Origin: Gloeobacter morelensis MG652769
GTDB taxonomy: Bacteria; Cyanobacteriota; Cyanobacteriia; Gloeobacterales; Gloeobacteraceae
Length of the DNA stretch: 64,000 nucleotides
Assembly: GCF_021018745.1 (NCBI RefSeq)
Contig: NZ_CP063845.1
Coordinates: forward strand, 4,650,001-4,714,000
Direction: 5' to 3'
Shown: piece after piece, positions 4,037 to 41,695 of the stretch
How the letters are laid out: each line of letters opens with the position of its first letter
Position numbering within the stretch: position 1 is the first letter of the stretch
Position numbers and translations under genes: made by a program
The notes under the pieces: generated by a model
Database searches by the model: none
What the model saw: only the letters and a program-made list of their open reading frames with translations
Told to the model about the DNA's origin: nothing

Positions 4037-5854
4037 ATGGAAAGCTTTGTGCAGTTCGGTTGGCTGATCCCGCTTTACTGTTTGGCGGGCGCCCTGTTTT
4101 CCCTACCCTGGGCGCTCACCCAGTCGAAAGGCCAGCGAATTGCAGCTTTCGGCGGACTGTTCTTTACGGGGTTGGCGCTGCTGCACGCGAGCTTGATGTT
4201 ACCTGAGGTTCTAGGTGGAGCGGGCGGCACCTTTCGCTTTCCGTGGATCGATTTTGGGTCGCTGAATATCGAGGTGAGCGGCCTGATCAATCCGCTCACC
4301 GCCGGCACACTGGTGCTGGTGGCGGGGGTGAGTCTGCTGGTGCAACTGTACTCGCTGGGCTACATGGACCACGAGCCGCGGCTGGCCCGCTACTACGGCC
4401 TGCTCAGCTTTTTCACCATGGCCATGCTTGGGCTGGTGCTCTGCGACAACCTCTTAGCCATGTACGGCTTCTGGGAATTGATGGGCCTGTCGAGCTATCT
4501 GCTGGTCGGTTTCTGGTGGTCGAAGCCCGCCGCCGCCGCCGCCGCCAAAAAAGCCTTTCTCACTACCCGCGTCGGCGATTTTTTGCTGTTGATTGGCATT
4601 CTGCTGCTCTACGTCAACGCCGGAACGCTTGAAATCACAGCTCTGGGTGAATGGGCGGAAACAGCTACAATCGCCGCTCCCCTTGCAGCGCTGATCGTGC
4701 TGTTGCTGTTCGCGGGTCCGGTGGGCAAGTCGGCCCAATTCCCGCTGCACGTCTGGTTGCCGGACGCGATGGAAGGTCCGACCCCGGCCTCGGCCCTCAT
4801 CCACGCCGCCACGATGGTTGCCGCCGGGGTGTTCATGGTGGCGCGCCTCGAGCCGGTCTTTGCCCTCTCAGGTGCGGCCCTCCTGGTCGTCGCCTACACC
4901 GGTGCCGTCACCGCCCTGGGTTCGGCCCTGATTGCCACGGCCCAAAATGACATCAAGCGGGTACTCGCCTACTCGACCATCTCCCAGTTGGGCTATATGT
5001 TCATGGCTCTGGGGGTGGGCAACACCGAGGCGGCGATGTTCCACCTGTTCACCCACGCTTTTTTTAAGGCGATGCTCTTTCTGGGGGCCGGTTCGGTTAT
5101 CCACGGCGCCCACACCCAGGACATGCGCGAGATGGGCGGCCTGGCGGGCAAAATGCCGGTGACGGCCTTCACCTACGGTATCGGTGTGCTGGCGCTTGCG
5201 GGTGTCTTTCCTTTTGCCGGTTTCTGGTCGAAGGACGCCGTCCTGCACGCCCTCGAAAAGGCTGAACTATATCCGGTCTTTGCGATGGGGCTGTTGACCG
5301 CCGGTCTGACCGCTTTCTACATGGCCCGCCAGTACATCCTGGTCTTTATGGGCAAGCCCTCTGAAAAATCGAGCCGCGCCCACGAGTCGACCTGGACGAT
5401 GTCGCTGCCGCTGGTGATTTTGGCGGTGCCCTCGGCGGCGGCGGGCTGGCTGGGCAACGCGTGGTTCCTCAAAGAAGAGCTCGACACGACGCTGCTGGTG
5501 CTCTCCTCGGGGGTGGTTGCCGTCGGATTTGCGGTTGCCCTCGCCGTTTACGTCTTTAATCTGGTGCCCAAGCCCGTGGTGCAGGCGCTCGTCCCCCTGC
5601 GCACCGCCCTCGAAAACCGCCTCTATATCGATGACTTTTACAGCCGGGCCTTTGGGAGCGGCTTGGCGGGTATCGCCGTGGTCGTCGCCTGGCTCGACCG
5701 CAACGTGGTCGACGGCATCGTCAACCTGGTGAGTGCCGCGACGCTCTTGAGCGGCGAGAGCCTGAAGTATCTGGAGACCGGCAAGGCGCAGGTCTATTTG
5801 CTGGTGATCTTCGCCTCGGTGATTGTTCTGGGCGTGATGGTCGGGATGCGCTGA
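4037..5854 (+). CDS. ndhF: NDH-1 / complex I subunit 5 (NdhF/NuoL family)
   Basis: Antiporter-like membrane subunit of the proton-pumping NAD(P)H/ferredoxin:quinone oxidoreductase. 605 residues from the ATG at 4037 (an in-frame GTG at 4013 would add 8). Multiple hydrophobic helices carry the family signatures FWELMGLSSYLLVGFW, the strongly conserved GKSAQFPLHVWLPDAMEGPTP region (shown here only in part), ALIHAATMVAAGVF, and the Lys/His helices around DIKRVLAYSTISQLGYM and HAFFKAMLFLGAGS. The usual respiratory cyanobacterial NdhF is somewhat longer, and NdhF3/F4 forms sit beside ndhD/cup genes. This copy stands alone, so whether it serves respiration or CO2 uptake is open. Confidence 0.9.
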   Translation: MESFVQFGWLIPLYCLAGALFSLPWALTQSKGQRIAAFGGLFFTGLALLHASLMLPEVLGGAGGTFRFPWIDFGSLNIEVSGLINPLTAGTLVLVAGVSLLVQLYSLGYMDHEPRLARYYGLLSFFTMAMLGLVLCDNLLAMYGFWELMGLSSYLLVGFWWSKPAAAAAAKKAFLTTRVGDFLLLIGILLLYVNAGTLEITALGEWAETATIAAPLAALIVLLLFAGPVGKSAQFPLHVWLPDAMEGPTPASALIHAATMVAAGVFMVARLEPVFALSGAALLVVAYTGAVTALGSALIATAQNDIKRVLAYSTISQLGYMFMALGVGNTEAAMFHLFTHAFFKAMLFLGAGSVIHGAHTQDMREMGGLAGKMPVTAFTYGIGVLALAGVFPFAGFWSKDAVLHALEKAELYPVFAMGLLTAGLTAFYMARQYILVFMGKPSEKSSRAHESTWTMSLPLVILAVPSAAAGWLGNAWFLKEELDTTLLVLSSGVVAVGFAVALAVYVFNLVPKPVVQALVPLRTALENRLYIDDFYSRAFGSGLAGIAVVVAWLDRNVVDGIVNLVSAATLLSGESLKYLETGKAQVYLLVIFASVIVLGVMVGMR

Positions 5855-5884
5855 GGGCGGGGACCATACCGGCGACCTGTTGGA

Positions 5885-7297
5885 TCAGTCGATGAGCTTT
5901 TCAAGAGCCTGCTGAAGATCCCCAGTCAGACGCTGAACGGACTGCCGGGCGGCCGAACGGCTGGTGTGGTAGGCGGACCAGCGCTCTGTGACTGAAATGG
6001 GTTCTCCAATAGAGATCCGCGCTTGCCGCCAGCCCAGGCGTGGCCTGCGCGGGTTTTTCTCCCCTTTGATGCGCGAAACCAGATCAAAAAGAATCAGCGT
6101 CGTTTCGGCAAATCGTTCAGCGGTGGGCCGGTCGCGCACATAGCTGCCGGTGACGGCCACGAAGCTCTCGACTAGACGCATCTGCTTGACCGGGAGGATG
6201 GCCGCTTGTGCTACCCAATCCGCCAGGCCCTGCTCCAGTCGGGAAAGCCTGCCCGACTCCGGCAGATCCTCGCGGTAGGTATCTATCCAGCCCGCTTCCT
6301 CCAGCCTGCGGCACCGCTCGGCGATCCCGCCGGTGGAGGAGATGCCGAAGTGCTGTTCGGCGGTGCGCAGAGCTACATCGAGCAGTGCCTGCAGGCGCCA
6401 TGCCAGTTGTGGGTGGGGCTCGCCCGTAAGGTCTGCAATCTTCGGGCTCAACTCTTCCAGTGGGCGATGGTTGAGGCGGCGATAAAACTGTTCCATCGTG
6501 TCGAGCAATCGTTCAGCAAGACGCAATAGCCGTGCATAGAGCGCTTCTTCAAAGCCATCCCGGGCGCGCGGGTCAAAAGGTGGAGCAGGCGGCAAGCCGC
6601 AGTCGGCTTCCAGGCGGCCCATCAGGCGGTCCAACTGTGCCCAGGGCGGCTTAGGATAACGGTATTGAACGCCAATCGGCACAATCAGCACTTCCTGGGA
6701 GCGATGGGCTCTGCGCAAATCATCTACGCACCAGAAGCCCAACTGGGCGACTCCAGGTTCCAGGGGACTGACGATTTCGCTGTGGCCGTTGGTCGCCCCT
6801 TCCGGAGCGATGGTGATCGGCAGGCTGCCATTGGCAAAAAGTTCGCGGGCAGCGCGAATAGCGGTCCAATCGAGCGCCCGGCCGCGGTGGATAGGCATTC
6901 CCCCCAACCGCGAAAAAAGCCACTCCAGCCAGTTGCCGGCCCACAGCGGCATCCCCCGGTCGTACAGAAAATGCGTGTGCAGGGGAAGTTTGAGGGCGAT
7001 TTTCTGTCGGCGGGCCACCCCGGGTAGAATGCGAGAAAATAGATACATCAAAGACATCGGGTCATCGACTTCGGGATGGCGAAATGCCATCAAAAAGCGG
7101 ATCTCGCCCGCCTGAAACCGCTGATAAAGCTTGACTAACCCTTCGGCATTTACCGCCTCAACCCGGGTAATGCCCGCCGGTAGCCAGGGCCGCGTGCGAA
7201 CGCGCAGCAGGAACGGCAGCACCCAGTGCGAGGCCCGCACCACCCCCAGGCTCAGACGTTGGGGGACAAATTCGAGGCGTGGTCGGACGTAACGCAT
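5885..7297 (-). CDS. PlsC-like acyltransferase
   Basis: 470-residue protein with a 1-acyl-glycerol-3-phosphate acyltransferase-like domain in its N-terminal half. The catalytic HX4D box is FRHPEVDD (about residue 73). A PEG-type motif (IAPEGATNG) follows at about residue 163. A long helical C-terminal region of unknown role extends to residue 470. Canonical PlsC is about 250 residues, so this is the large cyanobacterial version. Substrate is unknown; lipid, lysophospholipid or glycolipid acylation are all possible. It converges with ndhF, leaving about 30 bases between stops. Confidence 0.75.
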   Translation of the reverse strand: MRYVRPRLEFVPQRLSLGVVRASHWVLPFLLRVRTRPWLPAGITRVEAVNAEGLVKLYQRFQAGEIRFLMAFRHPEVDDPMSLMYLFSRILPGVARRQKIALKLPLHTHFLYDRGMPLWAGNWLEWLFSRLGGMPIHRGRALDWTAIRAARELFANGSLPITIAPEGATNGHSEIVSPLEPGVAQLGFWCVDDLRRAHRSQEVLIVPIGVQYRYPKPPWAQLDRLMGRLEADCGLPPAPPFDPRARDGFEEALYARLLRLAERLLDTMEQFYRRLNHRPLEELSPKIADLTGEPHPQLAWRLQALLDVALRTAEQHFGISSTGGIAERCRRLEEAGWIDTYREDLPESGRLSRLEQGLADWVAQAAILPVKQMRLVESFVAVTGSYVRDRPTAERFAETTLILFDLVSRIKGEKNPRRPRLGWRQARISIGEPISVTERWSAYHTSRSAARQSVQRLTGDLQQALEKLID

Positions 7298-8278
7298 GGC
7301 GGCACCGAGCCCAAGAACGGGTTGAACCCAGTCTAGGTCAGCGCACCGGTGAGTACGGTCTTAGTGAACATCGACACGATTCGGCGGATCACCGCCGGAT
7401 GGGTGCCGATCCTTATTGGCCATCTGCCCAAAATTGCCCGGTCAAGGTGGAAAGCCAGGGCAGCAAGGATGGGAACAGCCGCCGCAAGTCGGCTATCGAT
7501 CGGCAAAGTTGAGAGCTCCGCGCTGGACAGTCTCACCTGCATGATTTGTGACCACCACTTCCCCGGCTTGCGCCAGGCCGGGATCCTGCCGATACAACCC
7601 GCGCAGGTGCTGAACTTTCTCAGCTGCCCTTTTCAGCCCGGCTGCAGTGGGCACGAACTACCGATCTGTTGCCGTGGGAGCAAGGACCATCGCTTTCTCT
7701 CTAAACTATCAATGAGTTCGTTGGATTTTCGTTGGAACAGACGCTAGCATGTGATTCTAGCCGAGATGTCTTTACCTTTTGGTGATGACTTTGCAGACGG
7801 TGATTCCGCTTGGCTTCCAGTCGGACCTAGAGATGCAATCCGGCCCATTCTGGGCTTCCTTTGAGCAGTTCCGAACCTCCGGCCAGGCAGGTCTGCTCCC
7901 CATCGTTTCGGGTGTGGTGATGTCATGGCGAGGGCGGGAGACGACGAAGTGCGTTTGCGCACCATGCCCTGCCCCTGGCGCTTTGCATTGCACGCTCGGT
8001 CTCTAGAGCGGTTTGCCTGTTGAATGTATCGCTGAGCATGGGTATGTTTTCCGTTGTGTAGCTGTCTGTACTCTCACAGAACCTGCGGCCTGGCGTTTTT
8101 GAGAAAGCTCATAGACGCCGAGAAGTAATGATCAGGAAGCTGTTGGCCGCTGCGTCCACCTTTTACAAGCACAGCTGGGATGGCGGAATGGCTCATGCCG
8201 GGGTCGGCTCGGCTGCAGGTGGGGGCTGCCCTCCCCTAAACTGAAGAAAAGATTGCGCTTTTGTTAGGAAACCACCCC
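7298..8278. other. About 1 kb with no convincing gene
   Basis: This gap before ileS has several short open frames on both strands but none with recognisable motifs or a good ribosome site. One minus-strand frame (roughly 7510-7670, opening at GTG) reads like protein for about 50 codons and may be a decayed gene. The last 200 bases presumably hold the ileS promoter. I saw no tRNA cloverleaf and no T-box-like leader. Confidence 0.4.
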
Positions 8279-11230
8279 GTGACTCAGACCCCCGTCGACT
8301 ACAAGCAGACCGTCCGCACACCCAAGACGGATTTTCCGATGCGGGCGAACGCCGCGAACCGCGAGGTCGAGATTCAGCGGTTCTGGGAAGAGCGGGGCAT
8401 CTACGGGCGTCTTGCCCAGGAAAACCCCGGCGAAGTGTTTATCCTGCACGACGGGCCGCCCTACGCCAACGGCGATCTGCACATCGGCCATGCCCTCAAC
8501 AAGATCCTCAAGGACATCATCAACCGCTACCAGCTGCTGCAGGGGAGGCGGGTGCGCTACGTACCCGGCTGGGACTGCCACGGGCTGCCGATTGAATTAA
8601 AAGTGCTGCAGGATCTTCCCCAGGCGGAGCGCTCGCAGTTGACGCCCCTCGAGGTGCGCACGCGGGCGCGCGATTTCGCCCAGCGCACTGTGCAGTCGCA
8701 GTGCGCGAGCTTCAAGCGCTACGGCGTCTGGGGCGACTGGGATCATCCGTACCTCACCTTGCAGCCGGAGTACGAGGCGGCCCAGATCGGTGTTTTCGGA
8801 AAGATGGCCCTCAAGGGCTACATCTACCGGGGTCTCAAACCCGTCCACTGGAGCCCCAGTTCGCAGACCGCCCTGGCGGAGGCGGAACTGGAATACCCCA
8901 CCAAAGACGACGGCAGCCCCGCCCACACCTCCCGCTCGGTCTACGTCAAGTTCCCGCTTATCTCCATCGCGGCACCCGAGACCGCTGCGGTGATGGCCGC
9001 CGAACTGTTGCCGCGCCTGAGCGCTTTTCATGACCGCGAGGAGGAACTCGTCGATGCGCTGTTGGGCGAGCGCGACGACCTTCCCGAAATTGCCGTAGCC
9101 ATCTGGACCACAACTCCCTGGACGCTGCCGGGCAACCTGGCGGTGGCGCTCAACGGCGAACTCGACTACGCCCTGGTAGAAAGCGACGAGCACGGTCTGC
9201 TCATCGTCGCGGCCGAGCTGGTGGAGCGACTGGCAGGGACGCTCGCCACCCGCTTTGAGACGATTGCCACCTTCAAAGGCCGCGAACTGGAGGGCAGCCT
9301 CTGTACCCATCCGCTCTACAAGCGCACCAGCCCGATCGTCCTGGGCGATCATGTCACCACCGAGTCGGGCACAGGAGCGGTGCACACCGCCCCCGGCCAC
9401 GGCAGCGAGGATTTTGAGCTGGCCCAGCGCTACAACCTCGGGGTGCTCTCGCCGGTGGACGATTACGGCCGCTTCACCCGCGAGGCGGACACGGACCGGC
9501 GCGAACCCCTGCCGGTCTTTGCAGGCAAAGCGGTGCTCAGCGACGGCAACCAGGTGGTCATCGAAGCGCTCAGCGCGGCGGGAGCGCTGCTCAAAGAAGA
9601 AGCCTACGTTCACAAATATCCCTACGACTGGCGCACCAAAAAACCGACTATCTTTCGGGCCACCACCCAGTGGTTCGCCTCGGTCTCCGATTTTCGCCCC
9701 CAGGCCCTGGGGGCTATCGCCCAGACCGAGTGGATCCCCGCCAGCGGCGAGAACCGGATCACCGCCATGGTGGCCGGGCGCAACGACTGGTGCATCTCCC
9801 GCCAGCGCGCCTGGGGTTTGCCGATTCCGGCCTTTTACTGCGAAAACTGCGCCAACGTTCTACTCACCCAGGAATCGGTCGAAGCGGTGCAGGCGGCCGT
9901 GCGCGTCCACGGTTCGGATATTTGGTGGCAAAAAGAAGCAAGCGAGCTGCTTCCCCCGGGGATCGCCTGCGCCCACTGCGGCGGCACCACCTTTCGCAAA
10001 GAAAAAGACATCATGGACGTCTGGTTCGACTCGGGTTCTTCGTGGGCCGGGGTGCTGGGCAGGCGGCCGGAGTTGCACTATCCGGCCGATGTCTACCTCG
10101 AAGGATCCGACCAGCACCGCGGCTGGTTCCAGTCGAGCCTGCTCACCTGTGTGGCCACCGAGGGCACTGCTCCTTATAAAACCGTGATCACCCACGGCTT
10201 CACCCTCGATGAGCACGGCCGCAAGATGTCCAAGTCCCTGGGCAACGTCGTGGACCCGAAACTGGTGATCGAAGGCGGAGTGAACCAGAAGCAGCACCCC
10301 GCCTACGGGGCGGACGTGTTGCGCCTCTGGGTCGCCTCGGTCGATTACACCAGCGACCAGTTGCTCGGCCCCAGCGTACTTGCCCAGACCGCCGAGGTCT
10401 ACCGCAAGATCCGCAACACGGCGCGCTACTTGCTGGGCAGCCTCAACGACTTCGTGCCGGAGCGCGACCTGGTGGCCTTCGATTCGCTGGGTGAAGTGGA
10501 TCAATACCTCCTGCACCGCCTGAGTGTGGTGCACCTCGAAGTCACCCAGGCTTTTGAAAGTTACCAGTTCTCGCGCTTCTTCCAGGCCATCCAGAACTTT
10601 TGTGTGGCGGATCTGTCGAATTTTTATCTGGATATTTCCAAAGACCGCCTCTACATCAGCGCCGAAAATTCCCTGCGCCGCCGCAGCTGCCAGACGGTGC
10701 TCTACTACGTGCTCGAAAGCCTCGCCCGGCTGATTGCCCCGGTACTGCCGCACATGGCGGAGGATATCTGGCAATATCTGCCCTACCCCAAAAGCGACGC
10801 TTCGGTGTTCGAGGCAGGTTGGCCGGTCGACCACTCCCAGTGGTTCCAGCCGCTCACAGTCGAGCGCTGGCCAGGGCTGATTGCCCTGCGCGACCGGGTG
10901 AACATCGCCCTCGAAGCCGCCCGCAACGCCAAACGCATCGGCTCCTCGCTAGAAGCCAAAATTCGACTTTACGTCGAAGACCCGGCCCTGGCGGACGAAC
11001 TGGCCCGCCAAAATGACCAGTTGCGCTATTTGTTCATCGTCTCGCAGGTGGAGTTGCTGGAGGTTCCCCCGGCCGGGATGCCCGCCGAAGCGGGGGTAGT
11101 GGTCGAGGTTCTGGAAGCGGACGGCAAAAAGTGCGAACGCTGCTGGAACTATTCGGTCCACGTTGGCGAGGATGCCGAGCACCCGACTTTGTGCGAGCGG
11201 TGCGTCCTGGCCCTGAACGGGGCGTTCTAA
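8279..11230 (+). CDS. ileS: Isoleucine--tRNA ligase
   Basis: Cytoplasmic class I aminoacyl-tRNA synthetase charging tRNA-Ile. 983 residues from the GTG at 8279, chosen because an AGGA sequence lies about 10 bases upstream; a TTG at 8261 would add 6 residues. It has the HIGH motif (GDLHIGHALNK, about residue 67), an internal CP1 editing domain containing WTTTPWTLPGN and the GTGAVHTAPGHG region, KMSKS (about residue 648), and a C-terminal zinc finger with two CX2C pairs (CERC ... CERC). Length fits bacterial IleRS. The next gene starts 3 bases after the stop, suggesting co-transcription. Confidence 0.97.
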   Translation: MTQTPVDYKQTVRTPKTDFPMRANAANREVEIQRFWEERGIYGRLAQENPGEVFILHDGPPYANGDLHIGHALNKILKDIINRYQLLQGRRVRYVPGWDCHGLPIELKVLQDLPQAERSQLTPLEVRTRARDFAQRTVQSQCASFKRYGVWGDWDHPYLTLQPEYEAAQIGVFGKMALKGYIYRGLKPVHWSPSSQTALAEAELEYPTKDDGSPAHTSRSVYVKFPLISIAAPETAAVMAAELLPRLSAFHDREEELVDALLGERDDLPEIAVAIWTTTPWTLPGNLAVALNGELDYALVESDEHGLLIVAAELVERLAGTLATRFETIATFKGRELEGSLCTHPLYKRTSPIVLGDHVTTESGTGAVHTAPGHGSEDFELAQRYNLGVLSPVDDYGRFTREADTDRREPLPVFAGKAVLSDGNQVVIEALSAAGALLKEEAYVHKYPYDWRTKKPTIFRATTQWFASVSDFRPQALGAIAQTEWIPASGENRITAMVAGRNDWCISRQRAWGLPIPAFYCENCANVLLTQESVEAVQAAVRVHGSDIWWQKEASELLPPGIACAHCGGTTFRKEKDIMDVWFDSGSSWAGVLGRRPELHYPADVYLEGSDQHRGWFQSSLLTCVATEGTAPYKTVITHGFTLDEHGRKMSKSLGNVVDPKLVIEGGVNQKQHPAYGADVLRLWVASVDYTSDQLLGPSVLAQTAEVYRKIRNTARYLLGSLNDFVPERDLVAFDSLGEVDQYLLHRLSVVHLEVTQAFESYQFSRFFQAIQNFCVADLSNFYLDISKDRLYISAENSLRRRSCQTVLYYVLESLARLIAPVLPHMAEDIWQYLPYPKSDASVFEAGWPVDHSQWFQPLTVERWPGLIALRDRVNIALEAARNAKRIGSSLEAKIRLYVEDPALADELARQNDQLRYLFIVSQVELLEVPPAGMPAEAGVVVEVLEADGKKCERCWNYSVHVGEDAEHPTLCERCVLALNGAF

Positions 11231-11233
11231 ATC

Positions 11234-12130
11234 ATGTCCGGCCGGGTCTGGGCGGTCCTGGTCAACTGGTGCAACGACAGCGACACGCTGCGGGCGGTCG
11301 ATTCACTGATGGCCCAGTATCTGAGGCCGGAGGTGATCGTCGTGGACAACGCCTCGCCGGGCGGCTCGGAAGAGCGGCTGCGCGTGGCGCTCGCCGGACG
11401 TGCCACCGTACTGCAAAGCGGAGCAAACCTGGGCTGGGCGGGCGGCTGCAACGTCGGGATCCGTCAGGCACTTGAGCGGGAGGCCAGGTATGTGTGGCTA
11501 TTTAACAACGACGCCACTGCCCATCCGGCCGCCCTGGCCGCCCTGGTGGATGCTGCCGAGAGCCATCCGGACGCGGCCGCCTGCGGGTCGCTGATTTACG
11601 AACAAGATCGCCCGGAAGTGGTCTGGTTTGCCGGCGGGGCGGTCTCGCTCTGGCGGGGGGTCACATGGCATGTCGGTCGCGGCCAGACCGATCGCGGCCA
11701 GTTTGGCGGCCCGCCCCGGCCGGTGGCGTTTTTGACCGGCTGCAGCCTGCTGGTGCGCCGCGCCGCCTTCGAGCAGGTTGGGCTGCTACCTGAAAAGTAT
11801 TTTCTATACTTTGAGGATGTCGATTGGTGCCTGCAGGCCCGCCGCCGGGGCTACCGGCTATTGTTCGTCCCCGGGGCGCACGTCTGGCACCGCGAGGGTT
11901 CTTCAGCGCGCGGTGCCGACGGCCTCTCACCCACCCACGCCTACTACGACGCTCGCAACAATCTTTACTTTATCGACCGCTGGTGCAGCCCACTGCAGCG
12001 CATCACCGCCCGCGCCAACTTCGCAGTGCGCATCGTCGGTAAGGTCAGCTTGTGGTCTTTGTTGCGCCGTCGGGAACGGGTGCTCGTCGCATCGCTTCTA
12101 GCTGGAGTGCGCGATTACTATCAACCATGA
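11234..12130 (+). CDS. Family 2 glycosyltransferase (rhamnosyltransferase-like)
   Basis: 298-residue GT-A fold enzyme that probably adds a sugar to a cell-surface polysaccharide or glycan. It shows VLVNWCNDSDTL at the N-terminus, VIVVDNASPGGSE, the donor-binding region GWAGGCNVGIRQA, the DXD-like FNNDATA (about residue 92), FLTGCSLLVRRAAFEQVG, and YFEDVDWCLQARRRG with the catalytic-base ED pair. These are hallmarks of the WbbL-type subfamily. It follows ileS by 3 bases, an odd partner with no obvious functional link. Confidence 0.85.
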   Translation: MSGRVWAVLVNWCNDSDTLRAVDSLMAQYLRPEVIVVDNASPGGSEERLRVALAGRATVLQSGANLGWAGGCNVGIRQALEREARYVWLFNNDATAHPAALAALVDAAESHPDAAACGSLIYEQDRPEVVWFAGGAVSLWRGVTWHVGRGQTDRGQFGGPPRPVAFLTGCSLLVRRAAFEQVGLLPEKYFLYFEDVDWCLQARRRGYRLLFVPGAHVWHREGSSARGADGLSPTHAYYDARNNLYFIDRWCSPLQRITARANFAVRIVGKVSLWSLLRRRERVLVASLLAGVRDYYQP

Positions 12131-34463: not shown

Positions 34464-35705
34464 TCAGCGCGACGGCTGCGCACGATAGTGGGCTTGCTGA
34501 TAGGCAAAAGCATGCTCCAGATTCGCCAACTTCGCTGCCACGGCACCTGACAGAGCCGCCTGGGCGCTTTTGAGGGCGATGAGCTGCTCCTGTTGCTGTT
34601 GGAGCGCCGCGTGGAGTTGGGCGATTTGCTGGTCTTTGCGCTGGACGACCCTGTAAAGTCCCTGGAGGGCTGAGAGGGCCACGCCGTCCGCATCGACGGT
34701 GTTGATGTGCCGGTCGTCTTCGCCGAACTCGAAGGCGGCGGCGAAGTCCTGGGCGGTGGGGCCGATGTGGCGGATGGAGCGATCCTGACCGGTGTAATTC
34801 CAGGTACCGATAGGCAGGGCCGCCAGTTTGGCCAGTACCTGCTCGCCGTCGACCGCGGCAAAGTTGGCTTTATGGTTGCGATCACTCAGACTTGCCCAGG
34901 AACCGGATCCGGCGGCGAGACTGACGCCGGTGGCGGCGGCGGTGTCGGAGAAAAAGCGTACCCCGCCGGCGGCTTTGGCGGTGAACTGGTTGTTGGCACT
35001 GGCGACGATGCAGGTGCTGTCGCCGTTCCAGACGAAGCTGCCTTCCATAGACGCGCTTGCGCAGCGTCCGGCAGCGAAGCTGTAGTTGCCTGAAGCGGTG
35101 TTGGAATGGCCACCGGGGACGGTGGCGTAGGAGCCGATAGCATCGTTGTAGTATCCCCCGCCCACGGTGGAAGAGTTACCGGAGGCGAGGTTGCCGACTC
35201 CCCCGCCCACGGTGGAGGAGGAGCCGGTGGCGTCGTTGTAGTTTCCGCCGCCGATGGTGGCGTTGCCGCCGCTGGCGTAGTTGTCGAATCCGCCGCCGAC
35301 GGTGGTGGAAGAGCCGACAGCATCGTTGTATCGTCCACCGGCAATGCTGCCGTACACGCCGGTGGCGTAGTTGTAGATCCCCCCGCCCACGCTGCTGTAG
35401 CTTCCGGAGGCGATGTTGCTGTACCCCCCGCCCACGGTGGCATAGAATTTGTCGCTTGTAGTCCCGGTGTTGTCGCCGGCCCGGTTGTTGCCGCCGCCCG
35501 ACACGGTGCCCCAGTCGTCTGTTACAAGGTTGAAGGCGGCACCGGTCGAACCGCCGCCCCCGATCGTCCCTCCCTGCACCCCGGCGGTGACTGAATTGTT
35601 TGCACCGTTGTGGACGACGTTGGGAACCGTCTGGGCGTAAGCTGCGCTGCTTGCGAAGGTGAGCAACGCCGCCGCACAAACATTGCACGCGAGTTTGCGT
35701 TTCAT
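34464..35705 (-). CDS. Exported YadA-head-repeat protein with C-terminal Peptidase_S74 chaperone domain
   Basis: 413 residues from the ATG at 35705. Signal peptide ends SSAAYAQ. Residues about 60-220 are tandem 14-16-residue units of the form VGGGYYNDAIGSYAT, as in the left-handed beta-roll head of YadA-type trimeric adhesins. From about residue 273 the sequence LSDRNHKANF, then IGTWNYTGQ, HIGPTAQDF and VDADGVALSALQGLY match the Peptidase_S74 intramolecular chaperone seen in phage tailspikes and some surface proteins, which cleaves itself at that Ser. A coiled coil ends the chain. There is no YadA membrane anchor. Predicted: a self-processing secreted trimeric fibre. Confidence 0.8.
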   Translation of the reverse strand: MKRKLACNVCAAALLTFASSAAYAQTVPNVVHNGANNSVTAGVQGGTIGGGGSTGAAFNLVTDDWGTVSGGGNNRAGDNTGTTSDKFYATVGGGYSNIASGSYSSVGGGIYNYATGVYGSIAGGRYNDAVGSSTTVGGGFDNYASGGNATIGGGNYNDATGSSSTVGGGVGNLASGNSSTVGGGYYNDAIGSYATVPGGHSNTASGNYSFAAGRCASASMEGSFVWNGDSTCIVASANNQFTAKAAGGVRFFSDTAAATGVSLAAGSGSWASLSDRNHKANFAAVDGEQVLAKLAALPIGTWNYTGQDRSIRHIGPTAQDFAAAFEFGEDDRHINTVDADGVALSALQGLYRVVQRKDQQIAQLHAALQQQQEQLIALKSAQAALSGAVAAKLANLEHAFAYQQAHYRAQPSR

Positions 35706-35941
35706 GTGGGTAGATTCTCCATACGATGATTTTTCGATTGCCAACACAATCAAACCGGCGCTCTGAGCCGAGCCAGGGGCTGTGTGGCCTCGTTTTGCAG
35801 ACAAAAGGCCAAACATTGCCCTCAACAAACCGCTCGGCAGAACACCGATCGCCACCTCCGGGTTTGTAAAACCTGGGGGTCTACTGACCCAATATCCGGT
35901 GGGTCCTTCAGGATTTAGCGGTTTGTTTTTTTCACAGCCCC

Positions 35942-35948: not shown

Positions 35949-36911
35949 ACGTCAGTTCGGGTTAAGCATTGAGCTGGTCGGCATCAGACGCCACCGACGG
36001 CTTGTTCGGTTTGTGGCAGTAGGCAATCAACCCACACACCAGGTTCACCAAAAAATTCACTTCGCTGCGATGGCGGGTGTGCTCTATCTGCGAAATGTTC
36101 TTCAACTGGTCATTGATTGCTTCGATGATCCCGCGCTTGCGCAACAGCAGTTTGTCCGTCATCACCATCAGCCGATTGGTCATCTTGCGCCGCAACTTGG
36201 TGATCAGCGCCATGCCCAGCTCCTCGCGCAATTGCCTGCCAAGCTTGCTGCTGATGTAGCCGCGGTCGCCAAACACTTTGCCGTGCAAGTCTTTGAGCAG
36301 TTCAGGCACAGGCTTGCGATCGTCAGTGTTCCCAGCCGTCACGCTCATCGCCAGCAATTCGCCGCGCTCATTGACCACCAAGTGCAGCTTGAAGCCGTAA
36401 AACCAGCCCACCGAGCTTTTGCCCCAGGCGGCCAGACCGACAAAGACTTTGTGGGCGTGGACGCGGCGCACATGGCAGACGGCAAGTGGAGTCGAATCGA
36501 TAAAACTGATGCCGGTGCAGGGGCCAAAACAGTGGCGCAGGTAGGCACTGAGCGGCATAAGGGTAGAGGGCATCCACTCGACGAAGCGCGCGTAGCTGAC
36601 CAGTCCAGGAAAAGCGCTTCGCCAGTAAGCGCAGACCATTTCGGTGTAGAAGGCCTTGAAGTGGCGGTAGGCGGATTGGTGAAAAGCAATCAGAATCGTC
36701 AGGATTTCGCTGAGGCAGAGTCGGCGTGGCCGTCGCCTGTGTCGCAGGCCATCGTCGAGCAATTGTTGCTGCCAGAGCGGTTCGAAGCGTTGGCAGAAGT
36801 CATCGACATGGCAAAAGAGCGCTTCTAGACTGGGCATAGCGAGCGGTCCGTGGCTTGTGATGTGCTAATCCCAGCCTAGGCGGACCGCCTTTCCTTATCC
36901 CGAACTGACGT
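35949..36911 (-). mobile_element. Complete IS982 family insertion sequence (963 bp)
   Basis: Bounded by inverted repeats of 18 bp with one mismatch: ACGTCAGTTCGGGTTAAG on the left and, in reverse complement, ACGTCAGTTCGGGATAAG on the right. Perfect 7-bp direct repeats (TAAACTG) flank it. It carries one intact transposase gene. It sits in the divergent intergenic region between the YadA-like gene and the sigma-like gene, separating both from part of their original upstream DNA. Confidence 0.9.
35962..36837 (-). CDS. IS982 family transposase
   Basis: 291 residues, full length and uninterrupted. The DDE catalytic residues lie in [10 protein letters not shown] (D), FGDRGYISS (D) and [11 protein letters not shown] (E). 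Other family features are the N-terminal [21 protein letters not shown] and [15 protein letters not shown]. The short distances to both inverted repeats and the intact frame suggest a recently active copy. Confidence 0.93.
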
Positions 36912-37022: not shown

Positions 37023-38717
37023 ATGCATCCCCGGTTCTTCTCGTCGCCCCCACCGACCCTTGGCCAAAGACTGCACACCCTGGCTGTCCAACTGCAACCG
37101 GTGCTGCGCCGGTGGCGACAGATTGCCTGCGACGGGTCGGTGGCTGCGGCTGCGCGCCGCGCTTTGCTGCGCGATCTCGACAAAGAGGCCCGCCAGGCCA
37201 ATCGCGCCGAGTTTTTGCAACTTGTCGAGCGATTGTGCCGCGGCTATTGCAGCCGCAAGAAAGTCGGCTCCCATCCGGCTTTTGACCTGGAATTATTTGT
37301 CGAAGAAGTCAAGGTACTGGCACTGTCGCGGCTGGAGGAATTTGATCCCGCCTATCCCTTTCACGGCTGGTTTACAAGCTATATCTTGCTGCCGGTGTAC
37401 AAAAGCCTCGGCCGCAGCGTCGTGGTCACCTGGGAGAACCGCACTCCCAGAACAGAGCAGGGGCGCTTCGCGCGCTGGCAGGCCCAGCAACTGCTCAGTG
37501 CCCGGTCGATGGCCGGTCCGTTCTACGCCGAAAATCACCAAGAGGAGTATCTGGCTATGGCGGAATGGGTGCCCGACCCAAAGGCCCTTCCGGAGGACGA
37601 ACTGCTCGAACAACATTGCCGCGAGCGCTTCGTGGAGGCGCTGAAAAGCTTGAACGAATCCGAGCAGACGCTGCTGACGCGCATCTGCCTGCGCGGCGAA
37701 TTGCAAAAGGAAGTGGCCCGCTCGGTAGGTCTGACACCAGGACGGATCAGTCAAAAACTCAAGCACATCTACGAAAAACTGGCCCGCGAACTCGGTGAAC
37801 ACTTCCGTCACGACTGTGGCCAGACCAGCTTCTGCCGGGAATGGCAGAGCGCAGATGTGCTCCTGGATTCGGCCGGGCAGTCCGCCGGTTGTGAAGCGCG
37901 CCTGGCGCGGGCGATCCCGGCGCTCGTACGCCAAAGCGGCTGGGGCGGCGCCATCCACAATCGCGGCCTGCCGGTGGAGAATGTGCAGGAGCAGGCCCTG
38001 CTCGATGCCCTCTTTGACCAACCGGCGGCGGGCGCCGCTTTCGATCCGAGAGGATGGCTGCTGGCGGCGGCAGTGGGAGTGGCAGCGGTGGTGATGGTTG
38101 GGGTCGGTGAGGACCGTCCAAGGCCGACAGCACCGACCCCAACCATAGCCCAGCGCAATCGGTCGGCACCATCCGAGCTCTCGCCTGCCCTGAAGCCACA
38201 GGCTTTGCCCCCCGCTGCCCGCCGGGCCGTTCCTCCCAGCGGCGCTTCCACCCGGCCGCAGGTACATCCTGACGGTGCGCAGCGCAAAACGCCCCGGCTG
38301 CCCGAGCAGCTTGCCGCCGCCCCCGCCCGGCCACAGCCGCCACAGGTGCCCGCTGCCCTGCCGGAAGTACTTACCCGGGAGTTGCCCGCCGCCGACACCC
38401 GGCAGGCAAAGGCCTACACCGAGCGGCTGTGTGCCAGTTTGAACGCCGCAAATCTCCTGGAGCAACCGCCGCCGGGCTTCGCGCTCCTGGAGGTGGTCCT
38501 TGCCGTGCGCGCCGGCAAAGTCGAACTGCAAGCAGACTCCACCCGTGCAATCGACCCCGACGACGCGGCGCAGGAGACGCTCTGGCGCGAGGCCCTGCGC
38601 CGCGTCGCCGGCGGGGAACTGCCGCTGTGGCCCCAGGCGGTCAACGCCACAGTGCATTACTATGTCAGCCTCGACGTAGATCAGCGCAAGTGGACCTGTC
38701 AGCCGGTGTCACCGTAG
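37023..38717 (+). CDS. Sigma-70-like protein fused to a membrane anchor and a periplasmic C-terminal domain
   Basis: 564 residues from the ATG at 37023 (open frame extends 25 codons upstream). Residues about 85-135 resemble sigma region 2 (LEEFDPAYPFHGWFTSYI). Residues about 200-255 resemble a region 4 helix-turn-helix (LNESEQTLLTRICLRGELQ, then VARSVGLTPGRISQKLKHI). A single hydrophobic helix lies at about 343-361 (WLLAAAVGVAAVVMVGVG), then roughly 90 Pro-rich residues, then a small C-terminal domain (about 460-560) with a faint TonB-C-like pattern. Predicted topology is sigma part inside, Pro-rich and C-terminal parts outside. The CHAT gene begins 47 bases downstream, suggesting an operon. 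Domain calls are by eye. Confidence 0.7.
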   Translation: MHPRFFSSPPPTLGQRLHTLAVQLQPVLRRWRQIACDGSVAAAARRALLRDLDKEARQANRAEFLQLVERLCRGYCSRKKVGSHPAFDLELFVEEVKVLALSRLEEFDPAYPFHGWFTSYILLPVYKSLGRSVVVTWENRTPRTEQGRFARWQAQQLLSARSMAGPFYAENHQEEYLAMAEWVPDPKALPEDELLEQHCRERFVEALKSLNESEQTLLTRICLRGELQKEVARSVGLTPGRISQKLKHIYEKLARELGEHFRHDCGQTSFCREWQSADVLLDSAGQSAGCEARLARAIPALVRQSGWGGAIHNRGLPVENVQEQALLDALFDQPAAGAAFDPRGWLLAAAVGVAAVVMVGVGEDRPRPTAPTPTIAQRNRSAPSELSPALKPQALPPAARRAVPPSGASTRPQVHPDGAQRKTPRLPEQLAAAPARPQPPQVPAALPEVLTRELPAADTRQAKAYTERLCASLNAANLLEQPPPGFALLEVVLAVRAGKVELQADSTRAIDPDDAAQETLWREALRRVAGGELPLWPQAVNATVHYYVSLDVDQRKWTCQPVSP

Positions 38718-38764
38718 CTTCGCCGGCACACAGTGCCGTCCACGCGCGAATGAGGGGCAACAAG

Positions 38765-41695
38765 ATGACACATGGACATCTGCGAATCGCCCGGCACCTG
38801 CTGACGGCGTTGTTGCTGTCAGCAACGGGCGGCGCTGTCGGGACAGGGATTCGGGCGCAACCGCAGGAGCCTACCGAGGTGCAACAGCTGCGCGAACAAG
38901 CCGGGCAGTTCGAGAAAGCCGGACAGTATCGCCAGGCGATCGAAAGCCTGCAGCGCGTGGTATCTGTGCAGCAGCAGACCCCGGATCCCCTGCCGGAGTT
39001 GATGGCTGCAAGCCTGAGGCAGCTGGCGAACTTGCATCGCCTGATGGGGGAGTACAACCAGGCAGAAACGTTCGTTCGTCAGGCGGTGGCACTGTGCGAA
39101 CGGCAGCTGAAGCCGGGGCATCCCGAGGCGGCTGCAGGCTTCTATGTCCTGGCGCTGGTGCACCGCGACCGGGGGGATTACTTGCAGGCGGAGCCGTTGT
39201 TGCAGCGCGCTCTGGCTGAGCGCGAACGGGCCTTTGGAGCACAACATCCGGAGGTGGCCAGAACCCTCAACAGTTTGGCCAACCTGTACGCCGAACAGGG
39301 CGCCTACCGGCAGGCGGAGCCACTCTACCGGCGCACCCTCGCCATCTGGGAGCAACAGCACGGCCGCAGCCATCCGCAGGTGGCAAGCACCCTTGTCAAT
39401 CTGGCGCTTCTGTATAGCGAACAGGGCGCCTACCGGCAGGCGGAGCCGCTTTACCGGCGCGCCCTCGCCATCGGCGAGCAAAAACTGGGGCCGCAGCACC
39501 CGAGTGTAGGCGTGACCTTGCAAAACCTCGCCATCCTCGCAGCAGAACAGGGCAACCCTCAGGAGGCAGAGACGTTGTTTCGGCGCGCCCTGGCCATCGG
39601 CGAGCAGACCTTTGGCCCTGAACATCCGACTGTGGCTGCCGTCCTGGGGAATCTGGCCGACTTGCAGGCCCAGCAGGGTGACTTGGAGCAGGCGGAGCCG
39701 CTTTACCGGCGCGCCCTCGCCATCGGCGAGCAAAAACTGGGGCCGCAGCACCCTTTTGTCGCCGACACCCTTGGCAATCTGGCCCGGCTTTGTGCCCAAA
39801 AAGGCGACGACCGACAGGCCGAAGCGCTGTTTGAGCGGGCGGTTGCCATCTGGAAGAAGACTTCCGATCTGCGCCAGCCCAAAGCCGCCCGGCTGCTGGC
39901 CGACCAGGCGATCTTCCTGGCAGCCCAAAACCGACTGGCGGCGGCGGTTGAATCGATGCATACCAGTCTTGAGCTACAGGAGGCGAACGCTGCGCTCAAC
40001 CTGGCGGTAGGCTCCGAAAACCGGAAGCGGGACTATCTCGCCCTGCTGCAGCAGACCACCGACATTGCCCTGTGGCTGCATCTGCACAGGGCCCCTGCCG
40101 ATCGCGCGGCGGCCCGCCTCGCCCTAGATACGCTGCTTCGTCGCAAAGCGCGCCTGCTCGATATACTCAGCGACGAACTGCATACTTTGCGCCGCCGCTT
40201 AAACACCGGCGACCGGCAACTGTTCGACGCCCTGGCCGACACCCGCCGCCGCCTGGCCGGTCTGATCTTTCGCGGCCCCGGCACGGAGTTGCCCGAACCA
40301 TACCGGGACACAGTCAAAGCGCTGGCCCGGCAGATCGATACTCTCGAAAGCCAGCTTGCCGAGCGCAGCGCCGCCTTCCGCTCCCACAAACAGAGTGCCG
40401 CCGTCACCGTCGATACCGTCGCCAAGGCAATCCCTGCCGGGGCCGTCCTTATCGAACTGGCCGTCTACCGACCCGTTGATCCCCAGGCCGCCCAGAGTAT
40501 GCGCTTCGGCGCCCCGCGCTACGCTGCCTACCTGTTGAGCGGCGACGGCGCTTTTCAGGCGGTGGACCTGGGCGCGGTTGCACCCGTCGATGGGTTGGTT
40601 CGCCCCCTGCGCCAGTTCCTGGGCGACCCGCAGGTGCCGGTCGCCCAGGTGCGCCGGATTGCCCGCCAGTTGCACCGACGGCTGATGCAGCCAGTTGTGG
40701 AGCGCCTGCCGTCCGGCACACGGCATCTGCTGCTCTCGGCGGACGGTACCCTCCACTTGCTCCCCTTCGCCGCCCTCCTCGACGAACGCAATCGCTATCT
40801 GGTCGAAGATTTCGCCATTGGCTATCTCGATTCCGGGCGCGAGCTGCTGCGCCTGGGTTCCGGACAACCGCTCAGCCGTCAGCCGCCCCTCATCCTCGCC
40901 GACCCGGACTACCGGCGCACCGGCTTGGCAAGTGCCCGCCGCACTAAAGGTTCCGCCCGCACGGTGCCTGCCTTGCGCTCGGTGGATCTCTTCCGGTTGC
41001 CGCCGTTGCCGCCGCTGCCGGGTACGGGCCGCGAAGCGCGCAAGCTGGCCAGTTTGCTGCCGGACGCCCGGGTGCTGACCGGCCGTCGCGCCACCGAAAA
41101 TATCCTCAAGCAAACCCCGGCGCCGCGCATCCTGCACCTGGCCACCCACGGCTTTTTCCTGGATGCGGTGACCATATCCGGCCAGGCTCCCCCGGCCGTC
41201 GTTTCCGAAAATCCGTTGCTGCGCTCAGGGCTGGCCATGGCCGGATTCGATGCGCGCAGCAGCGCAGAGGAGGACGGGGTGCTCACCGCCTTGGAAGTCT
41301 CCAGTCTGGATCTGCAGGGCACGGCTCTGGTGGTGTTGTCCGCCTGCGACACCGGTCTAGGTCAGGTGCAGGCTGGCGAAGGGGTCTACGGTCTGCGGCG
41401 GGCCTTTGCCCTGGCAGGGGCGCAAAGCCAGTTGGTCAGCCTCTGGAAAGTCGAAGACCAGGCCACTTTGCATCTGATGGAGGCATACTACAGTGCGCTG
41501 CACAACGGGCTGGGACGGAGCGAGGCATTAAGACGTGCACAATTACAGTTGCGCGCCGAGCGTCGGCTGGAGCATCCGTTCTATTGGGCGGGTTTCATCC
41601 CGTCGGGAGACTGGCGCCCCCTGCCACCGACCCGGCGCACCACCCAAGCGATGAAACGCAGTAGCCCCCTCACCGGGGTGCGCCCTGGCACCTGA
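38765..41695 (+). CDS. Exported TPR-CHAT domain protein (caspase-fold peptidase-like)
   Basis: 976 residues from the ATG at 38765, which has GAGGGG 8 bases upstream. A probable signal peptide occupies residues 1-31. About residues 40-400 hold some eight 42-residue kinesin-light-chain-type TPRs (ALAIGEQKLGPQHP pattern). A helical linker follows, then a CHAT domain (about 650-960) with the catalytic His in HLATHGFFLD (about residue 794) and Cys in LSACDTGLG (about 860); both are intact. CHAT proteins are caspase relatives cleaving protein partners. It follows the membrane-anchored sigma-like gene in the same orientation. Confidence 0.85.
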   Translation: MTHGHLRIARHLLTALLLSATGGAVGTGIRAQPQEPTEVQQLREQAGQFEKAGQYRQAIESLQRVVSVQQQTPDPLPELMAASLRQLANLHRLMGEYNQAETFVRQAVALCERQLKPGHPEAAAGFYVLALVHRDRGDYLQAEPLLQRALAERERAFGAQHPEVARTLNSLANLYAEQGAYRQAEPLYRRTLAIWEQQHGRSHPQVASTLVNLALLYSEQGAYRQAEPLYRRALAIGEQKLGPQHPSVGVTLQNLAILAAEQGNPQEAETLFRRALAIGEQTFGPEHPTVAAVLGNLADLQAQQGDLEQAEPLYRRALAIGEQKLGPQHPFVADTLGNLARLCAQKGDDRQAEALFERAVAIWKKTSDLRQPKAARLLADQAIFLAAQNRLAAAVESMHTSLELQEANAALNLAVGSENRKRDYLALLQQTTDIALWLHLHRAPADRAAARLALDTLLRRKARLLDILSDELHTLRRRLNTGDRQLFDALADTRRRLAGLIFRGPGTELPEPYRDTVKALARQIDTLESQLAERSAAFRSHKQSAAVTVDTVAKAIPAGAVLIELAVYRPVDPQAAQSMRFGAPRYAAYLLSGDGAFQAVDLGAVAPVDGLVRPLRQFLGDPQVPVAQVRRIARQLHRRLMQPVVERLPSGTRHLLLSADGTLHLLPFAALLDERNRYLVEDFAIGYLDSGRELLRLGSGQPLSRQPPLILADPDYRRTGLASARRTKGSARTVPALRSVDLFRLPPLPPLPGTGREARKLASLLPDARVLTGRRATENILKQTPAPRILHLATHGFFLDAVTISGQAPPAVVSENPLLRSGLAMAGFDARSSAEEDGVLTALEVSSLDLQGTALVVLSACDTGLGQVQAGEGVYGLRRAFALAGAQSQLVSLWKVEDQATLHLMEAYYSALHNGLGRSEALRRAQLQLRAERRLEHPFYWAGFIPSGDWRPLPPTRRTTQAMKRSSPLTGVRPGT
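39437..39501 (+). repeat. 65-bp direct repeat inside the TPR region, copy 1
   Basis: Identical to 39689-39753, 252 bases away, i.e. two TPR units of 126 bases. Synonymous positions are also identical, unlike other TPR units, pointing to recent duplication or gene conversion. Confidence 0.85.
39689..39753 (+). repeat. 65-bp direct repeat inside the TPR region, copy 2
   Basis: Second copy of the repeat at 39437-39501. Confidence 0.85.

Follow-up and report, generated by a model that had tools for sequence, protein, structure and literature searches.

A probable membrane-tethered sigma factor paired with a secreted TPR-CHAT protein in Gloeobacter morelensis and other Gloeobacterales

In a type III-E CRISPR system, the tetratricopeptide repeat (TPR)-CHAT protein Csx29 cuts Csx30, an inhibitor of the extracytoplasmic function (ECF)-like sigma factor CASP-sigma, and thereby relieves the inhibition (PMC10028731). 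IutY of Pseudomonas putida (ECF243) is a sigma factor fused to an anti-sigma factor and is activated through regulated intramembrane proteolysis by Prc and RseP, and release by proteolysis has been proposed for the membrane-fused actinobacterial sigma factors of ECF52 (SCO4117) and ECF53 (PMC8999054). Besides, genes for CHAT proteins, subtilases, and carboxypeptidases are neighbors of ECF54 sigma genes, a group described as having no anti-sigma factor (PMC8999054), and EACC2-caspase operons contain an ECF sigma factor and DUF1822 (PMC8195603). VreA, which belongs to a sigma signaling system of Pseudomonas, has a TolA/TonB-like C-terminal domain (PMC2729926). Here, we describe a two-gene locus of the cyanobacterium Gloeobacter morelensis MG652769, located in a window of 64,000 nucleotides (i.e., the whole stretch of DNA that was analyzed, positions 4650001-4714000 of the 4,921,229-bp chromosome), in which a gene for a probable membrane-tethered sigma factor precedes a gene for a secreted TPR-CHAT protein. 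The features of the locus, in window positions, are as follows.

37023..38717, plus strand: gene of the probable membrane-tethered sigma factor, 564 amino acids plus stop (open reading frame check)
36948, plus strand: alternative GTG start, upstream of the sigma gene
37185..37430, plus strand: sigma region 2, about residues 55-136 (TIGR02937 and the CnrH and SigE matches; sequence support weak)
37638..37793, plus strand: sigma region 4 helix-turn-helix, about residues 206-257 (Pfam, TIGR02937, profile, and model)
37852..38051, plus strand: cytoplasmic linker, containing the conserved motif SGW at residues 305-307 (alignments; split loci L010, L011, L039, and L044)
38052..38108, plus strand: single transmembrane helix, residues 344-362 (hydropathy, Kyte-Doolittle 2.17)
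38109..38375, plus strand: Pro-rich periplasmic spacer, residues 363-451, 23% Pro over 90 amino acids (composition and alignment)
38376..38714, plus strand: outer C-terminal domain, residues 452-564 (113 residues), predicted TonB/TolA C-terminal fold
38765..41695, plus strand: TPR-CHAT gene with a secreted product, 976 amino acids plus stop (open reading frame check and Pfam)
38765..38860, plus strand: signal-peptide-like N terminus, about residues 1-32, ending in ...GIRA/QPQ (by eye)
38891..40054, plus strand: TPR array, about residues 43-430 (Pfam and NCBIfam scans)
40655..41611, plus strand: CHAT domain, residues 631-949 (Pfam)
41147-41149, plus strand: codon of His795 in the motif HLATHGFF
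41345-41347, plus strand: codon of Cys861 in the motif LSACDTG

As in the Csx29-Csx30-CASP-sigma system, a TPR-CHAT protein is associated here with an ECF-like sigma factor; cleavage is established there and predicted here. However, the Csx29 system is cytoplasmic, is RNA guided via Cas7-11, and has a separate soluble inhibitor, whereas G. morelensis has a secreted CHAT protein and a membrane-fused sigma factor. Like IutY, the fusion carries sigma factor, helix, and periplasmic part in one polypeptide, but it differs from IutY and FecI-FecR in that it gave no FecR match in Pfam and NCBIfam, has a predicted TonB/TolA-like outer domain, and has a TPR-CHAT partner. ECF52 and ECF53 share the C-terminal extension with a membrane helix, and SCO4117 further resembles the fusion in its Pro-rich outer region and in having an outer domain; in contrast, the zinc-finger anti-sigma domain of these groups had no match in our fusion (Pfam, NCBIfam), and the carbohydrate-binding outer domain of SCO4117 was not found in it. 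CHAT and subtilase neighbors, the same two kinds of protease, connect the locus and its relatives to ECF54 by neighborhood. EACC2-caspase operons likewise link caspase-fold protease genes to ECF sigma genes, although with another set of proteins, and the window pair had no DUF1822 match in Pfam. The fusion resembles TonB, TolA, and VreA in having a single helix, a periplasmic spacer rich in Pro, and, by prediction, a TonB/TolA-type fold at the C terminus; it differs from them in its N-terminal sigma factor and in its helix, which is devoid of His.

In view of the TPR-CHAT protein cutting a sigma inhibitor (PMC10028731) and of IutY, the ECF52/ECF53 fusions, and the ECF54 neighborhoods (PMC8999054), the original prediction went too far in holding that no system of this kind had been described. 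Nevertheless, none of the systems compared, which were drawn from a literature search largely outside subscription journals, links a secreted TPR-CHAT protein to a sigma/TonB-like fusion. Key-term searches of a paper on cyanobacterial sigma architectures (PMC11119718) turned up no mention of membrane-fused or CHAT-linked sigma factors.

It is very likely that the first gene encodes a membrane-tethered sigma factor. NCBIfam model TIGR02937 matched residues 61-257 with 54.1 bits against a cutoff of 42.9, and Pfam recovered region 4 only, below its cutoff, leaving region 2 unmatched. An early alignment that included the 16 sigma domains was so divergent that it could not be used for a pattern scan. 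A profile of 16 members matched region 4 of solved sigma factors with E values of 1e-7 to 1e-4 and region 2 more weakly (CnrH, E of 4e-5; SigE, E of 0.016). In a Foldseek search with the predicted sigma model, whose confidence is low (predicted local distance difference test [pLDDT] of 66), the top 50 matches were nearly all sigma factor or RNA polymerase entries. Thus, the two sigma regions that had been read from the DNA alone were both found, as for an ECF-like sigma-70 protein, with region 2 detected weakly by sequence.

The helix, Pro-rich spacer, and outer C-terminal domain that had also been proposed were all recovered, and a single helix with a Pro-rich linker is present in all 10 fused members and in all three split partners examined (see below). 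The outer domain is predicted to adopt a TonB/TolA C-terminal fold. Its model (pLDDT of 76, built from three sequences) has the order helix-strand-strand-helix-strand-strand, and the best 16 rows of a VIA-align comparison were all TolA domain III, TonB C-terminal domain, HasB, or FusB, with Z scores from 8.0 down to 4.6 and the next unrelated row at 4.5; a Z score of 8 is in a range that common arrangements can also reach. An hhalign comparison with TonB gave a weak match (P of 0.007), in which the conserved SGG...D of the outer domain was aligned with the TonB motif SSG...LD. We base the assignment on the fact that a single superfamily fills the top rows and covers the whole domain, in addition to the weak profile match. 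No credible match was found to Pfam in any of the 13 members or to the sequences of solved structures. Kinesins ranked first in Foldseek (E of ~0.03, TM-score of ~0.2) and were rejected as chance matches because they were poorly aligned and because TolA and TonB had the best TM-scores and coverage. Every fused member and two of the three aligned split partners retain two Cys residues (Cys470 and Cys559), which fits a disulfide in an oxidizing compartment. TonB and TolA need an SxxxH motif in the helix for their motor partners. No His was found in the helix of any of the 13 members examined, which makes it unlikely that the fusion is coupled to a motor of the ExbB/TolQ type.

The second gene, 47 bp downstream on the same strand as had been noted, encodes a member of the CHAT protease family with TPRs (PF12770 match of 5e-84). 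The signal peptide and intact dyad of the original prediction were borne out by inspection of the N terminus and by His795 and Cys861, and the His, the Cys, and a signal-peptide-like start were present in all 12 complete linked or neighboring CHAT copies; peptidase activity is thus predicted from the sequence motifs.

The pairing was surveyed in nine genomes of the order Gloeobacterales. Ten fused sigma genes were found, three of them in G. morelensis itself (window, L008, and L009) and seven in four relatives (L032 to L037 and L041), and every one has a TPR-CHAT gene within ~4 kb, so that the co-occurrence expected from the original prediction was confirmed, with true adjacency in several loci. 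The CHAT gene lies immediately downstream in the window, L032, and L035 (overlapping in the last), downstream beyond a GDSL gene in L008 and L033, and upstream in L009, L034, and L037; it is divergent in L041 and convergent, with an endonuclease gene in between, in L036/L094. That proximity was retained while gene order varied argues for a functional link. In the G. morelensis genome, which has only six CHAT genes, three randomly placed genes never all fell within 2 kb of a CHAT gene in 200,000 trials (analytical P of ~1e-6); since the copies of related genomes are not independent, P was not multiplied across species. The pairing of the sigma and TPR-CHAT genes is therefore more than chance. 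Both genes of the orthologous pairs, including the outer domain, are under purifying selection, with ratios of nonsynonymous to synonymous substitution rates of 0.25 to 0.38 for the sigma and CHAT pairs and 0.33 for the outer domain.

In 386 genomes spread evenly over the phylum, nearly all matches outside Gloeobacterales covered approximately region 4 only, and no full-length relatives were found. A search of genome contigs, which may leave out close relatives of the window genome, returned two loci only. Relatives with names are Gloeobacterales metagenome-assembled genome ES-bin-313 and "Aphanocapsa lilacina" HA4352-LM1. In L036, the fused sigma gene is immediately followed by a short stretch (9642-9710) that shares 78% identity with a portion of the CHAT domain; it is possibly the remnant of a former downstream CHAT copy, the intact CHAT gene being located convergently further on.

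An equivalent of the fusion, not foreseen in the original prediction any more than the TonB/TolA-like fold, exists in the same genome as two genes. In this unfused form (L010, L038, L040, L044, and L039), a sigma gene of ~275 to 307 codons is followed, usually with an overlap (of the ATGA type in L039 and L044), by a membrane-protein gene whose product has the SGW segment at its N terminus, followed by the helix, the Pro-rich spacer, and the outer domain. Since this is the layout of sigma/anti-sigma operons, the window protein is best read, from its sequence and that of its relatives, as the fusion of a sigma factor with the membrane-bound protein that regulates it. The SGW linker, which forms the N terminus of the separate membrane protein in split relatives, is the anti-sigma-like candidate. 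In L039, the sigma gene (6614-7498) and the membrane-protein gene (to 8394) are followed by a TPR-CHAT gene (8479-11463). In the sigma tree, fused members occur in at least two places, indicating one or more fusion or fission events; the branches of the window, L041, and L042 are long and their placement is unsure. The presence of split and fused forms in one genome offers a natural experiment on the merger of a sigma factor with its membrane regulator.

A parallel system with another protease is represented by L011 (4850-8320) and its orthologue L045, where a sigma gene is followed by an overlapping gene for a membrane protein whose outer domain is of another kind and then by a gene for a secreted S8 subtilase. 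Genes for VCBS/FG-GAP-like secreted proteins are on the opposite strand in both loci, and a divergent CHAT gene is located beyond them, 3.8 kb away in G. morelensis.

These architectures would fit a trans-envelope signaling unit, in which the fused regulator keeps the sigma factor, presumably inactive, on the inner side of the cytoplasmic membrane. The sensor of a periplasmic or outer membrane signal would be the outer domain, the TPR array of the secreted CHAT protease, or both; the CHAT protease would then cut the extracytoplasmic part (site 1), and an M50 protease would cut within the helix (site 2) and free the sigma part for RNA polymerase, the order of the cuts being part of the proposal. 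M50 matches are present in G. morelensis and, being generic, in all control genomes too. By analogy with the known systems, activation by proteolytic release is somewhat favored, and it is conceivable, though tentatively so, that the neighboring CHAT protein acts as the site-1 protease. The same tentative standing applies to the unit as a whole, i.e., a tethered sigma factor released by a CHAT cut followed by a site-2 cut. A protease step is best supported, indirectly, by the unrelated extracytoplasmic protease (subtilase) of the sister operon. The fullest version, with a TonB/TolA-type rod across the periplasm and an envelope-sensing TPR-CHAT protein switching the sigma factor on as its site-1 protease, seems rather unlikely.

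Several results weigh against release by the CHAT protein. No CHAT gene was found in the stretch examined near L010, L038, L040, or L044, which indicates that the membrane part does not need a CHAT gene next to it in order to function; accordingly, of the release layout originally proposed, the tethered sigma factor, the conserved pairing, and an architecture suited to proteolytic release stood, and its validity as a general rule did not. The correlation of sigma and CHAT divergence (r of 0.72 with all 11 pairs) decreased to an r of 0.44 (P of 0.09) with one pair per orthology group, and the linked CHAT proteins do not form one exclusive clade, the copies of the window and L041 branching away from the other nine. 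Besides, the pLDDT of 66 of the sigma model is too low for docking of the SGW segment on the sigma part to be judged, and signal-peptide-bearing TPR-CHAT proteins are widespread among cyanobacteria that do not have this sigma factor.

The last of these points would also suit the strongest alternative, namely, that the CHAT protein is an output: the tethered sigma factor would control the neighboring secreted TPR-CHAT gene, and the protease would act on other periplasmic or extracellular targets. The GDSL hydrolase of L008 and L033 and the DNA/RNA nonspecific endonuclease of L094/L036 would fit a small regulon of secreted neighbors, and a CHAT gene located upstream of the sigma gene, as in three of the loci, is compatible with it. 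However, this alternative leaves unexplained why a subtilase gene is next in the split operon L011/L045 and why CHAT and other proteases act on sigma inhibitors in published systems (PMC10028731, PMC8999054), and no convincing motif of a shared promoter was found 5' of the orthologous sigma and CHAT genes. We consider it somewhat unlikely.

Activation might instead proceed without the CHAT protein, which would then be a linked modulator. The TonB/TolA-like domain would bind an outer membrane or periplasmic partner, and a conformational change or generic proteases such as Prc and RseP would follow, as in IutY, which is cut by these two enzymes (PMC8999054). The predicted fold, the likeness to VreA of Pseudomonas cell surface signaling (PMC2729926), and the split pairs lacking a CHAT gene would agree with this, whereas the linkage of all 10 fused genes to CHAT and the lack of a FecR or STN domain in the fusion (Pfam) speak against it, making it unlikely. 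Negative control, in which CHAT would destroy the tethered sigma protein or the outer sensor and limit the response, is improbable: proteolysis that keeps sigma factors inactive has been discussed for several ECF groups, including the CHAT-linked ECF54 (PMC8999054), but a secreted protease would have access to the outer part alone, and removal of that part would more readily be expected to trigger release than to eliminate the sigma factor.

If release by the secreted CHAT protein, with the TonB/TolA-type rod, is true, the locus would represent, in a cyanobacterial group that is among the earliest to branch, an extracytoplasmic equivalent of the Csx29-Csx30 sigma switch, and CHAT-controlled transcription would extend from CRISPR to envelope signaling. 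It would also mean that a sigma factor uses a TonB/TolA-type domain as its outer part, and many secreted TPR-CHAT proteins of cyanobacteria would acquire a testable function as site-1 proteases of a sigma release pathway.

As for the surroundings of the pair, no terminator-like site was found in the gap between the two genes. Upstream lies an insertion element (35949-36911) that is bounded by an 18-bp inverted repeat and carries one gene, for a DDE transposase (35962-36837, minus strand). It is separated from the start codon of the sigma gene by 111 bp and thus cuts the pair off from what originally lay upstream. An antiphage defense role was considered and dropped, as PADLOC gave no specific match; in that scan, which covered the two pair proteins among the window genes, no Cas or Csx family was matched. 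On the far side of the insertion element, the product of a minus-strand gene (34464-35855) combines YadA-like head repeats with a Peptidase_S74 (chaperone of endosialidase) domain at its C terminus.

Other CHAT genes were seen in different settings. In L096 (8878-13960, minus strand), a gene for a large protein and one for a smaller secreted-looking protein (DUF928-like by eye) lie upstream of another CHAT gene on the same strand, near which no member of the window's sigma family was found. L097 contains an ordinary ECF sigma gene with a small single-helix anti-sigma-like gene (322-1229) and, ~3.6 kb downstream of these two and beyond unrelated genes, a further TPR-CHAT gene (4843-7770), whose orthologue in G001 is also preceded by an ECF sigma gene.
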